This document shows, piece after piece, positions 26,938 through 57,378 of a DNA stretch of 64,000 bases. The position numbers and the translations under genes are program-made. Position 1 is the first letter of the stretch, and each line of letters opens with the position of its first letter. The notes under the pieces were generated by a model. The model made no database searches and had not been told where the DNA came from. It saw only the letters and a list, made by a program, of their open reading frames with translations. Source of the DNA: an uncultured Clostridia bacterium (GTDB lineage Bacteria > Bacillota > Clostridia > Christensenellales > Borkfalkiaceae); assembly GCA_947631925.1 (NCBI GenBank), contig CANRNE010000009.1:1-64000 (forward strand), written 5' to 3'.

Positions 26938-27140
26938 CGGGGGTAGGGGGGTGGGTACGAGTTCTAAATTCTTTGCCGTAGGCGGAATTCACTTCCGCCG
27001 TGGGCGTCCCCATTTGCAACGCCACCGCAGGCTTAGTGTCCGATGAAACAGTACAGTTTGCGCGGCTAAGAGCGGAAGAAGGCGCAACCGCCAATCCGCT
27101 CGAAGAAAATATTTGCGCACGCAAAGATTTTTGCCGAAAC
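26938..27140 (+). repeat. Dispersed intergenic repeat family 1, copy A
   Basis: gggtaggggggtgggtacgagttctaaattctttgcc...ttgcaacgccaccgcaggctta.tgtccgatgaaaca...hairpin 27101-27136; shared with 50121-50325 (inverted). Confidence 0.85.
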
Positions 27141-27242: not shown

Positions 27243-29537
27243 ATGAAAAAGATGACTCCCAGCAAGCTCAACCGTTTCTTTATCGCCTTTCTTGCAGTCG
27301 CCGCCGCCTTTCTCGCGGTTGGATTCGGCACGCTTGGCTCCTTCCACTCGGTGGGAGATGCCTATCTGCTTGCCGTACGGCAGGAGGGCGATCAGGATGC
27401 CCCGAGCGTGACGTTCAAACTCGAGAACCCGCGGCGCGTCAAAACAAACGACGACGGCACGGAGACGGAGGAGACGCTCAGCCTGCGCCTCACCGAAATC
27501 TATGTCAACGTCGCCTCCATCCATGCGGAAGAGGGCGTCCCCGCCAAGCTCACCGTAGAGCGCAAGACCTCGTCGTCCTCCGCCTCCTACGGAAGTGCGG
27601 TCACCGCCACACTCGAGAACTTTTTCACCCCGGGCGCGAAATACGACGAGGAGGGCAAGGAGATTGAAAAGGCCGTCGTGACGACGGGCAAGAACGTGCG
27701 CTTCCGCTATGTGATGCCCTTCCTTCCCACGAGCTCTTCCTCTTCGAGCGCATCCGCATTCGGAACGGGCTGGTCTGTTTCGACGTATCCGTATATCCGC
27801 CTCATCGCATCGGGCGGAGTAAACGTCCTTCTCAACGAAGTCGTCTTCGTCGGCGTGCCCACTTCCGTCTCCACGAGCGACACCAATCTCTCCACGGAGC
27901 GCTACATCATCCCCGCAAAGGTGGACTCCGCCACCTACTTCCAGGGGGAGAAGCAGGAGGACGGAAGAGTCCGTGCCCAAGCTCTCCTCGACGACACGTC
28001 GATAAACTACTCGGGCGTGTATGCCGCCATCGACAGATGGAATGCGGCGCATGCGGACGGCGGCGATACCAAGGACAAGGCGCCCTCCCTTCTTGCGCGC
28101 AAGGTGTCCGATATCAAAGATTTCTTCCCCGTCTCCGAGAGCTCCTTCTCGCAGTTCACGGCGGATGAGGTGTATTCTCTCATGACGATTGCCGAGATGC
28201 GGCAGGGCGCCACCTATTACAACAACGCGGACGACGCGCGCGCCACCTACTTTGCAGACAATGTAAGCGGCGCCTTCGGGACGGACTTCCTCGCCCTCGG
28301 GACGCTCATCTTCGGGACGAGCCCCTTCGGTCTTCGTTTCTTCCCCATGCTCGCCATGTTCGGCGTGCTTGTCGTCCTGTCCCGCTTCGTGACGCGGCTC
28401 GCCCGCAGTGAAAAGGCGGGGCTGGTCTTTGCGGTGCTCTTCGCCCTCTCCTGCCTCACGCTGGGAATCGCCCACACGGGCACTCCCTTTGCCATCGGGC
28501 TCTTCTTCTTCGCCTGCGCGCTCGACATCGTCCACAGATTTTATGCGAACGGGATTAAAAAGGCGACATTTACCGCCGTCCTTCCCTTGCTGTTTGCGGG
28601 ATTCTTCCTCGCGGGAGCCATCTGCGTGAACGGCGCCTTCGTCATTCCCGCCGTCGCCGTCGCCGCGCTCTTCGTCCTCGGCGTCGTGCGCATGAAGGGG
28701 GCCAAGAAGTATGCCCTCGAGAAGATTGAGACGGAGCCCGAGCCCCTGCCCGCGCCTCTGCCTGCAGAGGGGACGGAGGAGGAGCCGCCCGTGCCCAAGG
28801 AAGTTCGCATCGCCCGCGAAAAGGCGGGGTATCGCTTCCGCTTCACGGCCGCACCCGTGCTCTTCGCCGCGGGGCTTGTTGTCGGCGCGCTGCTCTTTGC
28901 GCTCCTCGGCATGATTCCCGCCTACTACACCTATGTCAAGGTCTATGACCCCACTTCGGACCTCGCAAATCCCACGATGAACGTGTTCACGCTCGCATGG
29001 CAGTGCTTTGTCAACGGGTTCACGGGCGCAAATCCCTACGGCGTGGGCGGCGGCTGGAACTTCTTCCGCACCGTCTTCACGGGGAAACAGCTCGCAGGCG
29101 ACTATGCGCTCGCGGGCGTCAATGCCGCCCCGTCCTCCCTGTACGGCGTGACCATGTACACCGTCAACTGGATTGCCGCGCTCGCCGTGATTGCGGGCAT
29201 CGTCGGCGCCGTCCTCGTGCTCGTGCGCGCCGTCCGCAGCGGGGACAAGCGGGAACTTCGCATCGCCCTGCGCCGCCTGCTCATTCCCGCGGTGCTCGCC
29301 GTCTGTGCGCTCGTCGCCGCCGCCGTCTCTCCCGCCGCAGAGGGATTTGTCCTTCTCGCATGGCTGATGGCATTCGCCCTCACCGCGCCCGCTTCCTCCG
29401 CATACGGAACGGGCCGTGCCGTGCGCATCGCGGAAATCACGGCGCTCGTGCTTCTCGTCGCCGTCTTCGGACTGCTCGCGGTGTTCACCTTCTCGGTGCC
29501 CCTGCCCGCAACCGTTCTGACGCCTATTTTCGGATAA
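27243..29537 (+). CDS. Polytopic membrane protein, GT-C/PMT-like (family 39-like) glycosyltransferase candidate
   Basis: FGTDFLALGTLIFGTSPFGLRFFPMLAMFGVLVVLSRFVTRLARSEKAGLVFAVLFALS.. resembles PMT_2 membrane core. Confidence 0.55.
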   Translation: MKKMTPSKLNRFFIAFLAVAAAFLAVGFGTLGSFHSVGDAYLLAVRQEGDQDAPSVTFKLENPRRVKTNDDGTETEETLSLRLTEIYVNVASIHAEEGVPAKLTVERKTSSSSASYGSAVTATLENFFTPGAKYDEEGKEIEKAVVTTGKNVRFRYVMPFLPTSSSSSSASAFGTGWSVSTYPYIRLIASGGVNVLLNEVVFVGVPTSVSTSDTNLSTERYIIPAKVDSATYFQGEKQEDGRVRAQALLDDTSINYSGVYAAIDRWNAAHADGGDTKDKAPSLLARKVSDIKDFFPVSESSFSQFTADEVYSLMTIAEMRQGATYYNNADDARATYFADNVSGAFGTDFLALGTLIFGTSPFGLRFFPMLAMFGVLVVLSRFVTRLARSEKAGLVFAVLFALSCLTLGIAHTGTPFAIGLFFFACALDIVHRFYANGIKKATFTAVLPLLFAGFFLAGAICVNGAFVIPAVAVAALFVLGVVRMKGAKKYALEKIETEPEPLPAPLPAEGTEEEPPVPKEVRIAREKAGYRFRFTAAPVLFAAGLVVGALLFALLGMIPAYYTYVKVYDPTSDLANPTMNVFTLAWQCFVNGFTGANPYGVGGGWNFFRTVFTGKQLAGDYALAGVNAAPSSLYGVTMYTVNWIAALAVIAGIVGAVLVLVRAVRSGDKRELRIALRRLLIPAVLAVCALVAAAVSPAAEGFVLLAWLMAFALTAPASSAYGTGRAVRIAEITALVLLVAVFGLLAVFTFSVPLPATVLTPIFG

Positions 29538-32163: not shown

Positions 32164-32299
32164 CCTTGCAGGCCCCCTCGAAGGCGGCGCGTGGAGCCAC
32201 CTCCCCCCTTATACTTGAGGGGGGAGGGTAGGGTAGGGGGTGTCATTTCCAAATAACGGAAAAAGCAAAAACCGCGCTTTTTGCTTTTTCACACAATTT

Positions 32300-32412
32300 G
32301 CGACCTCGGGGCTTATTGTCCGATGAAACGACCGCGACAGTGAGCATGTTAAGGCAATCGAGCCAATTTCCTCGACGAAAAGATTTGCTTTAGCAAAGCT
32401 TTTCGCCGAAAC
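32300..32412 (+). repeat. Dispersed intergenic repeat family 1, copy B (partial)
   Basis: ggcttattgtccgatgaaacgaccgcgacagtgagcatgttaaggc...hairpin 32373-32408. Confidence 0.85.
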
Positions 32413-32454
32413 CTAAAATTATTTGCGCGAGCAAAACCACGCTTTTGCGCTGCG

Positions 32455-32580
32455 CGCCCCCATTTGCAACGCCACCGCAGGCTTATTGTCCGATAACACG
32501 ACCGCGACAGTGAGCATGTTGAGGCGCCAACGCCAATTTCCTCGACGAAAAGATTTCCGCAGGAAAGCTTTTCGCCGAAA
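32455..32580 (+). repeat. Dispersed intergenic repeat family 1, copy C (partial)
   Basis: ccatttgcaacgccaccgcaggcttattgtccgataacacgaccgcgacagtgagcatgttgaggc...hairpin 32543-32577. Confidence 0.85.
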
Positions 32581-40280: not shown

Positions 40281-40302
40281 ATAGCCGAAACAAGTTCATC
40301 GT

Positions 40303-40412
40303 AATCTTTTTGGGGCGGAGTGAAATTCTCCACCGGCAGTAAAGTCTGCGAAGGGCAGCGATGCCCCCGAACGGGTGAAATTCCCGTACCGACGGTATAG
40401 TCCGGATGTGAA
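40303..40412 (+). ncRNA. FMN riboswitch (RFN element)
   Basis: ggggcggagtgaaattctccaccggcagtaaagtctgcgaagggcagcgatgcccccgaacgggtgaaattcccgtaccgacggtatagtccggatg. Confidence 0.97.
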
Positions 40413-40422
40413 AAAAGAGATT

Positions 40423-49827: not shown

Positions 49828-50118
49828 ATGTTGACAAGCAAACAGCGCGCGAATCTCAAGTCGCTCGCATCCGTCATGAAGCCCGTGGGGCAGGTGGGGA
49901 AGGACGGCATCACCGACGCCGTCGTCAAGAACTTTTCCGATGCGCTCGAGGCGAGGGAACTCATCAAAGTCACCCTGCTCTCGCAGTGGGTCGGCGAAAA
50001 GCGCGAGATTGCGGACGAGCTGGCAACGCGCATGAAGGCGGAACTCGTCGCCATTCTCGGCCGTCGCGCGATTTTCTACCGCAGGGCCAAGCGCAAGGAA
50101 CCGCATATTGAGTTCTAA
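49828..50118 (+). CDS. yhbY: YhbY/CRM-domain RNA-binding protein
   Basis: MLTSKQRANLKSLASVMKPVGQVGKDGITDAVVKNFSDALEARELIKVTLL. Confidence 0.93.
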   Translation: MLTSKQRANLKSLASVMKPVGQVGKDGITDAVVKNFSDALEARELIKVTLLSQWVGEKREIADELATRMKAELVAILGRRAIFYRRAKRKEPHIEF

Positions 50119-50120
50119 TT

Positions 50121-50325
50121 ATTTCGGCGAAAAGCTTTGCTAAAGCAAATCTTTTCGTCGAGCGGATTGGCGTTTACGCCTTCATATACTCTTAGCCGCG
50201 CAAGCGGTACTGTTTCATCGGACAATAAGCCTGCGGTGGCGTTGCAAATTGTGGCGCCCACGGCGGAAGTGAATTCCGCCTAAGGCAAGGAATTTAGAAC
50301 TCGTACCCACCCCCCTACCCCCCTC
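50121..50325 (-). repeat. Dispersed intergenic repeat family 1, copy D
   Basis: Reverse complement of copy A architecture incl. hairpin 50125-50160, cggacaataagcctgcggtggcgttgcaa and aatttagaactcgtacccacccccctacccc. Confidence 0.85.
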
Positions 50326-50333
50326 CGCGGGAG

Positions 50334-50439
50334 GGGGCATGAGGAGCGATTCCTCGGGAGGGGCATGCATGGCGCCTCCGTGGGAAGGGGCATGAGGAGC
50401 GATTCCTCGGGAGGGGCATGCATGGCGCCTCCGTGGGAG
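50334..50439 (+). repeat. Tandem duplication, two copies of a ~53-bp unit
   Basis: ggggcatgaggagcgattcctcgggaggggcatgcatggcgcctccgtgggaa repeated (50334, 50387). Confidence 0.85.
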
Positions 50440-50530
50440 GAGCTGTCGAGCATAGCGAGACTGAGGTGGGGCGCATTCTAAATTTGTCATGCCGAGCCGC
50501 CGCATCGCGGCGAGTCGAAGCATATCCGCA
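50424..50530 (+). repeat. Dispersed intergenic repeat family 2, copy 1
   Basis: ggcgcctccgtgggaggagctgtc..ctgaggtggggcg.cattctaaatttgtcatgccgagc..gtcgaagcatatccgcat; shared with 57288-57378. Confidence 0.8.
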
Positions 50531-57205: not shown

Positions 57206-57287
57206 TCGTCCCGCGCGATATCGAGAAATCTCAAGGCCTACCCCTCGTGGGGGGGCTCCGCCGTAGGCGGTGGCGGGGGGGATTCTT

Positions 57288-57378
57288 GGCGCCTCCGTGG
57301 GAGGAGCTGTCACGAAGTGACTGAGGTGGGGCGGCATTCTAATTCGTCATGTTGAGCGTAGTCGAAACATATCCTTAT
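57288..57378 (+). repeat. Dispersed intergenic repeat family 2, copy 2, followed by inverted and SR-type repeats to ~57555
   Basis: ggcgcctccgtgggaggagctgtcacgaagtgactgaggtggggcggcattctaattcgtcatg..gtcgaaacatatcc; downstream inverted gcggatatacttcgac..; direct copies of gtcattccgaggagc at ~57489 and ~57516. Confidence 0.8.

Follow-up and report, generated by a model that had tools for sequence, protein, structure and literature searches.

The window, that is, the whole stretch of 64,000 nucleotides analysed here (contig CANRNE010000009.1), comes from the draft genome of an uncultured Clostridia bacterium (1.9 Mb in 75 contigs, designated G000 below). Its intergenic gaps contain four copies of a non-coding repeat unit. 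Unit A precedes the open reading frame at 27243, units B and C are arranged head-to-tail between scpB and topA, and unit D, on the minus strand, faces a convergent plus-strand yhbY-like gene. The preliminary description had placed four copies at 26938-27140, 32300-32412, 32455-32580 and, inverted, 50121-50325. Reading of the three stretches bore this out, and a covariance model of the repeat (R1) gave matches at 26973 (+), 32257 (+), 32423 (+) and 50288 (-). The parts of the four copies, with P1, P2 and P4 denoting hairpins, are the following.

26939..26972, plus strand: G-rich upstream module and AT-rich spacer ending in ...GAGTTCTAAATTCT (alignment of genome copies)
26973..27040, plus strand: unit A, P1 hairpin (GGCGGAA/TTCCGCC), CATTTG box and P2 (covariance-model hit, 78.0 bits)
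27101..27136, plus strand: unit A, P4, CGAAGAAAATATTTGC-GCAC-GCAAAGATTTTTGCCG (sequence, alignment)
32257..32320, plus strand: unit B, variant P1 (GGAAAAAGCAAAAACC..CTTTTTGCTTTTTC), CAATTTG box and shortened P2 (23.4 bits; sequence)
32373..32408, plus strand: unit B, P4, CGACGAAAAGATTTGC-TTTA-GCAAAGCTTTTCGCCG (sequence)
32423..32490, plus strand: unit C, second-type P1 (GCAAAA/TTTTGC), CATTTG box and P2 (64.9 bits)
32543..32577, plus strand: unit C, P4, CGACGAAAAGATTTCC-GCA-GGAAAGCTTTTCGCCG (sequence)
50221..50288, minus strand: unit D, P1, CAATTTG box and P2 (84.9 bits)
50125..50160, minus strand: unit D, P4 (sequence)

The P4 hairpin of unit A is located 106 nt upstream of the open reading frame at 27243, 29 nt separate the end of the unit C P4 from the topA start (32607), and 6 nt separate the end of the unit D P4 from the stop codon of the yhbY-like gene (50116-50118). 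Other repeat modules of the window (50322-50447 and 57277-57357) are a 53-bp tandem repeat with GGGGCATGAGGAGCGATTCCTCGGGAGGGGCATGCATGGCG and a GACTGAGGTGGGGC.. module beside unit D, and they belong to the intergenic mosaic described below. The window also contains an FMN riboswitch (40302-40421, plus strand, 107 bits).

Some features attributed to the copies had to be redrawn. The 37-mer said to be common to them is present, reading GGCTTAGTG at 27016, but it is not exact in every copy: TTTGCGACCTCGGGGCTTA replaces TTGCAACGCCACCGCAGGCTTA at 32300, and GATAACAC replaces GATGAAAC at 32455. A terminal hairpin whose arms change in a compensatory way was found in all four copies as claimed, but it is merely one of several hairpins of the unit. 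The length of about 200 bp applies to the 'long' copies (26938 and 50121), in which the unit is preceded by a G-rich module distinct from it; in the alignment of genome copies the module at 26939..26972 is common to other 'long' copies and lies outside the core unit.

The unit is approximately 165 nt long and contains four hairpins, running from P1 through the box CAATTTG, P2 and a variable middle to the terminal P4. Across species the order TTGC-P1-(G)C..CAATTTG-P2-CTT..TGTC-middle-CTC-P4-AA(A)(C/T) is constant. P1 combines two stems, the outer one GCxC/GxGC, with an unpaired part between them that reads CTTA/GTGG or GA/GCT. P2 takes the forms GCCGAA/TTCGGC, GGTACCC/GGGAACC, GGCAA/TTGCC, GTTGCA/TGCAAC, GCGCGA/TCGCGC and others. 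P4 is typically a palindrome of 35-38 nt that has CT on its 5' side and AA(A)(C/T) on its 3' side; it opens with C-G in 31/31 distinct arm pairs, and its loop often carries other inserted palindromes. The middle region was at one stage described as a single fixed stem, P3, which was dropped because each type found in the genus forms its own set of pairs (GTCC/GGAC, GAGGA/TCCTC, AGGGG/CCCCT, AAAGTGC/GCACTTT). The idea that a stretched P4 loop might hold a cargo gene was likewise rejected, as no distant P4 partner arm was found within 6 kb in the short loci searched.

Alignment of the G000 copies showed that they are assembled from interchangeable modules. There are two main types of P1 (GGCGGAATTCACTTCCGCC and GCAAAACCACGCTTTTGC), several types of P2, two types of middle region (AGTACCGCTTGCGCGGCTAAGAG with ATCCGCTCG, and GACCGCGACAGTGAG with TTTCCTCG) and P4 variants with matching arms, and several unrelated modules can be located upstream of units (the G-rich, REP-like one; GGAAAAAGC..GCTTTTTC; others). 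Units in pairs are mostly tandem (44 head-to-tail, 3 divergent, 0 convergent), the tandem ones having a spacing of about 14 nt. The usual mismatched P1 (CCTTAGGCGG../..CCGCCGTGGG) is a join of two perfect palindromes, which occur whole elsewhere: CCTTAGG..CCTAAGG at locus L054 and CCCACGG..CCGTGGG in the third unit of locus L078. A similar left junction, GTTCYMAATYAC, is common to different modules, standing for example before P1 and before GTCACCCTGAGC.. (L331-L350, which are intergenic regions of the species G033 and G068; L285), and one module terminates in its inverse, GTAATTGAGAAC; junctions of this kind may be a common joining site.

A 210-base query gave 54 matches in G000 (best E=3e-106) and model R1 found 67 copies, numbers that exclude chance. 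Five contigs of G000 (C10, C14, C15, C21 and C49; loci L004, L005, L011, L014 and L021) end within or at a copy. The repeat thus breaks assemblies, and the true copy number of the draft is probably higher. R1 matched 53 of the 61 sampled genomes of the genus, with up to 79 copies each; G015, G017, G021, G028, G030, G062, G066 and G075 gave no match. Among 297 genomes of the order, matches were confined to the genus and two sister genera, apart from a marginal one, and among 391 genomes of the class they were found in the genus alone; a match outside the family (L263) was unconvincing on inspection. The sister-genus copies (L261, L271, L279, L262, L272 and L264) are weak relatives with a longer paired middle, which keep P1, CAATTTG, P2 and a CACG-type P4. 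An exact P1 25-mer was found at more than 80 loci, all of them, among the matches listed, in assemblies of uncultured Clostridia named 'Lapin', the French word for rabbit. The same 25-mer had 0 matches in viral contigs, which gives no sign of phage carriage of that P1 type.

Covariation was tested on 26 sequences aligned by primary sequence (alignment A2) with a 17-pair P1/P2 structure. In this alignment 86.9% of the P1/P2 cells were paired. Cells changed on both sides numbered 51, as compared with 13.9 ± 2.8 after shuffling (reached in 0/500 shuffles), and the score was 0.346 versus 0.150. When the partner was slid by 1-3 columns, pairing fell to 39-52% and both-sided cells to 21 or fewer. 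The test is largely non-circular, because most sequences had been picked for a recognisable P4 and not for P1/P2 pairing, with a few added by hand to broaden the range of P1. For P4 the corresponding shuffle test is partly circular, the hairpins having been selected by pairing, so the weight rests on P1/P2. For the same reason the 98 distinct P4 arm pairs, among which each of the four Watson-Crick pairs occurs at stem positions 3-6, describe diversity and do not prove pairing. The unbiased evidence for P4 pairing is the sequence-only alignment of the G000 copies together with two orthologous sites described in the next paragraph. A first whole-unit MAFFT alignment (A1) misaligned P4 and was excluded from the statistics. 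Covariation is real and, as the shuffle test and the covariance-model search indicate, genus-wide. Selection, to which the paired substitutions had been taken to point, is not the sole route to them, since template switching or replacement can rewrite palindromes whole.

The flanks of the units were searched in the genomes of two sister species, G033 and G068, and the regions found were compared. Unit content differed at 9/9 comparable sites, the flanking genes being 91-97% identical. At seven of these sites one species has no unit and its gap holds other palindromic modules. At the other two, one species retains P4 alone, at the same position and with unrelated, self-complementary arms (CGAGCGATTTG/CAAATCGCTCG versus CGTTGATTTC/GAAATCAACG, and CGATGAATTC/GAATTCATCG versus CGATAAATCTG/CAAATTTATCG). 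At several sites the host flank begins at an identical base though the modules differ. These observations show rapid gain, loss and exchange of units. The check for target-site duplications proposed earlier detected none at the filled and empty orthologous sites, and no clean single insertion with a target duplication was seen among the sites compared. The scpB-topA gap spans about 430 bp in the window, including units B and C; in most relatives shown it is tens of nucleotides long (about 20-40 nt), and in G009 an inverted related unit lies between the two genes. Between stop codon and unit at L128, L175, L180, L107 and L054 there are short remnants similar to the 3' arm of P4 (e.g. GTTCACGAAAAATCTTTTGC), which look as though an earlier unit had been joined or replaced by a newer one.

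The position of P4 was determined for 101 array-terminal units, 92 of which had an assignable neighbour on the P4 side; the counts are approximate, because genes were called with a simple codon-usage script. P4 faced a stop codon at 70 of the 92 sites and was no more than 12 nt from it at 46; of points drawn at random from the intergenic gaps of these loci, 3.1% came that close. P4 also meets sense starts, with scarcely more than the ribosome-binding site between. Solo P4 hairpins are few, and most of the listed cases keep degenerate bodies. Units were found at the same gene in more than one species for secY, recA, mutS2 and EF-G, and at ftsY in G000 and G068 (names from reading of the translated ends), a recurrence that could reflect inheritance, preference or function. 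According to earlier work reported in PMC12306157, E. coli REPs stall ribosomes when they lie no more than 15 nt from a stop codon, and the P4-stop distance found here is inside that range. By analogy, a hairpin directly behind the stop may affect mRNA 3' ends or terminating ribosomes in this genus.

The preliminary description left two readings side by side, a MITE/REP-like repeat and a structured RNA. The second would have the unit transcribed, as a same-strand leader or trans RNA or as an opposite-strand 3'-UTR, with the fold selected as RNA. Covariation of several helices, the conserved unpaired boxes (CAATTTG), the fixed position beside gene ends and the helix order shared by sister genera are all as expected of such an RNA, and because of the covariation the family is easily taken for one. 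A simple test is the count of G.U against A.C, since on a strand selected as RNA G.U is expected to outnumber A.C. Over P4 and P2, mismatches were 30 G.T and 26 A.C (p=0.69), so that wobble preference is absent from both stem sets, and the minus strand likewise had no RNA-type excess. In eight tRNAs encoded at these loci, the acceptor and T stems had 11 G.T and 2 A.C (Fisher p=0.06 against the repeat, a small sample). Many apical loops of P4 are GNA triloops (GCA 17, GTA 16 and GAA 11 of 173 distinct loops), which form very stable DNA mini-hairpins, and Rfam 15 had no relevant match for the repeat either at the gathering threshold or at E<=1. These three observations favour hairpins at the DNA level, and the constraint looks DNA-level rather than RNA-level. 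Since unit number, moreover, varies freely, units are absent at orthologous sites and 8/61 genomes of the genus gave no match, we consider a structured RNA unlikely.

Alternatively, the paired changes could be unselected products of mechanism, imperfect palindromes being perfected by template switching or swapped whole in repeats that have no function. The changed stems are indeed new palindromes throughout and show no surplus of wobble pairs, individual copies can have chimeric P4 arms (L294), and P1 usually joins halves of two perfect palindromes found elsewhere (L054, L078). Such a process is difficult to reconcile with the P1 mismatch (CTTA opposite GTGG) and the internal mismatch of P4, which persist uncorrected in many copies and species, or with the bias of P4 toward stop codons, and we regard it as quite improbable.

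For a mobilising enzyme, 41 genomes were searched. Y1 (RAYT-type) transposases occurred in 11 of them, G000 having one Y1 protein and a fragment. The mean number of units was 27 in genomes with Y1 and 21 in those without (arithmetic on the search counts), the Y1-bearing G017 and G062 had no units, and a unit was nearby at 1/8 Y1 loci. The RAYT check proposed earlier was therefore negative, no RAYT being linked to the units, and Y1_Tnp was rejected as the mobiliser. Y2_Tnp (IS91/Helitron-type) matched 0/41 genomes, and the control genomes likewise gave no match. RVT_1 was found in 7/41 genomes and not in unit-rich ones such as G005, G006 and G061, so that by this search a retroposon copied by reverse transcriptase was also set aside. 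Three reverse-transcriptase matches lie in very long open frames (1109-1761 aa) on the small G000 contigs C41, C54 and C57 (including L352). A classical REP/RAYT system, in which a Y1 HUH TnpA_REP transposase mobilises the units, would agree with the high-copy extragenic hairpins with a conserved mismatch region near stop codons and with the Y1 protein of G000, but given the restriction of Y1_Tnp to 11 genomes, the unrelated copy numbers, the lack of linkage and a P4 without GTAG or CGTC tag it is already largely refuted as a general mechanism and very improbable.

We therefore favour, with a probability of roughly 0.6, a REP/BIME-like, non-autonomous and non-coding mobile family that is separate from the described REP families; covariation, the distribution of copies and the differing orthologous sites in G033 and G068 all support the MITE/REP-like half of the original suggestion. 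Each unit is a chain of hairpins (P1, P2, the variable middle and P4) and, as a mobile repeat, would need to be able to adopt a hairpin or cruciform form in DNA; the hairpin DNA would be the substrate of a mobilising or recombining activity. In this reading intergenic gaps gain, lose and exchange units, which can also be duplicated in tandem, within a larger mosaic of palindromic modules. P4 is the fixed end; it settles against coding sequence, mostly immediately after the stop codon of the gene it faces. Several points speak against this reading. A purely selfish repeat would not require the order from P1 to P4 to be conserved as far as the sister genera, where the middle stem is longer. Genes with units in more than one species suggest that certain sites may have been inherited or may be favoured because of a function. 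None of the families searched (Y1_Tnp, Y2_Tnp, RVT_1) provided a mobilising enzyme, the sites compared showed no insertion with a clean target duplication, and the wobble comparison with tRNAs is small. A more far-reaching version, which we place on the doubtful side, is that the family as a whole is a mobile multi-hairpin nucleic acid, that a RAYT-independent mobiliser delivers or retains P4 within a few nucleotides of stops, that a fast-evolving selfish repeat thereby sets a sizeable share of the mRNA 3' ends of the genus, and that the recognition hairpin diversifies in each species by compensatory change.

Proteobacteria are the best-known hosts of REP-like repeats, many of which are associated with RAYT transposases. 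Here the same life-style is seen in uncultured gut Clostridia, in a repeat that has no RAYT linked to it and whose folded unit is much larger. The dozens of species are natural replicates for how palindromic repeats spread and for the effect of a hairpin directly behind the stop codon on gene expression.

Judged by a limited search of the open-access literature, the repeat is a new family with a REP/BIME-like life-style, absent from Rfam. With the GTAG- and CGTC-tagged REPs and BIMEs (PMC3733652, PMC2817692) it shares high-copy extragenic palindromes in mosaic clusters and an imperfect hairpin with loop and mismatch, often 3' of genes. It has the copy number and the extragenic position beside gene 3' ends that characterize REPs and lacks their defining tag on P4, as it lacks a linked RAYT; no cognate Y1 gene flanked by repeats was found. 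In contrast to REPs, its unit of about 165 nt has several hairpins and a conserved single-stranded box, and its mosaic clusters are mostly tandem, head-to-tail order dominating where BIMEs have alternating head-to-head and tail-to-tail dimers. The hosts are Clostridia, which are unmentioned in PMC3733652. CGTC-tagged REPs are similar in having no dedicated transposase, but they have 8-9 bp stems starting with AT pairs and a CCA tail (PMC3733652), whereas P4 starts with C-G, usually followed by G-C, and has AA(A)(C/T) after it. Like MITEs, the units are short, non-coding, dispersed and polymorphic between close species; unlike MITEs, they have no terminal inverted repeats spanning the unit, only the P4 end being fixed, and orthologous sites show replaced intergenic content in place of a target-site duplication. 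The pneumococcal BOX element is a multi-module intergenic repeat with a variable number of inner modules, and the modular composition found here resembles it, a likeness that rests on the general description of BOX and is offered as a lead.
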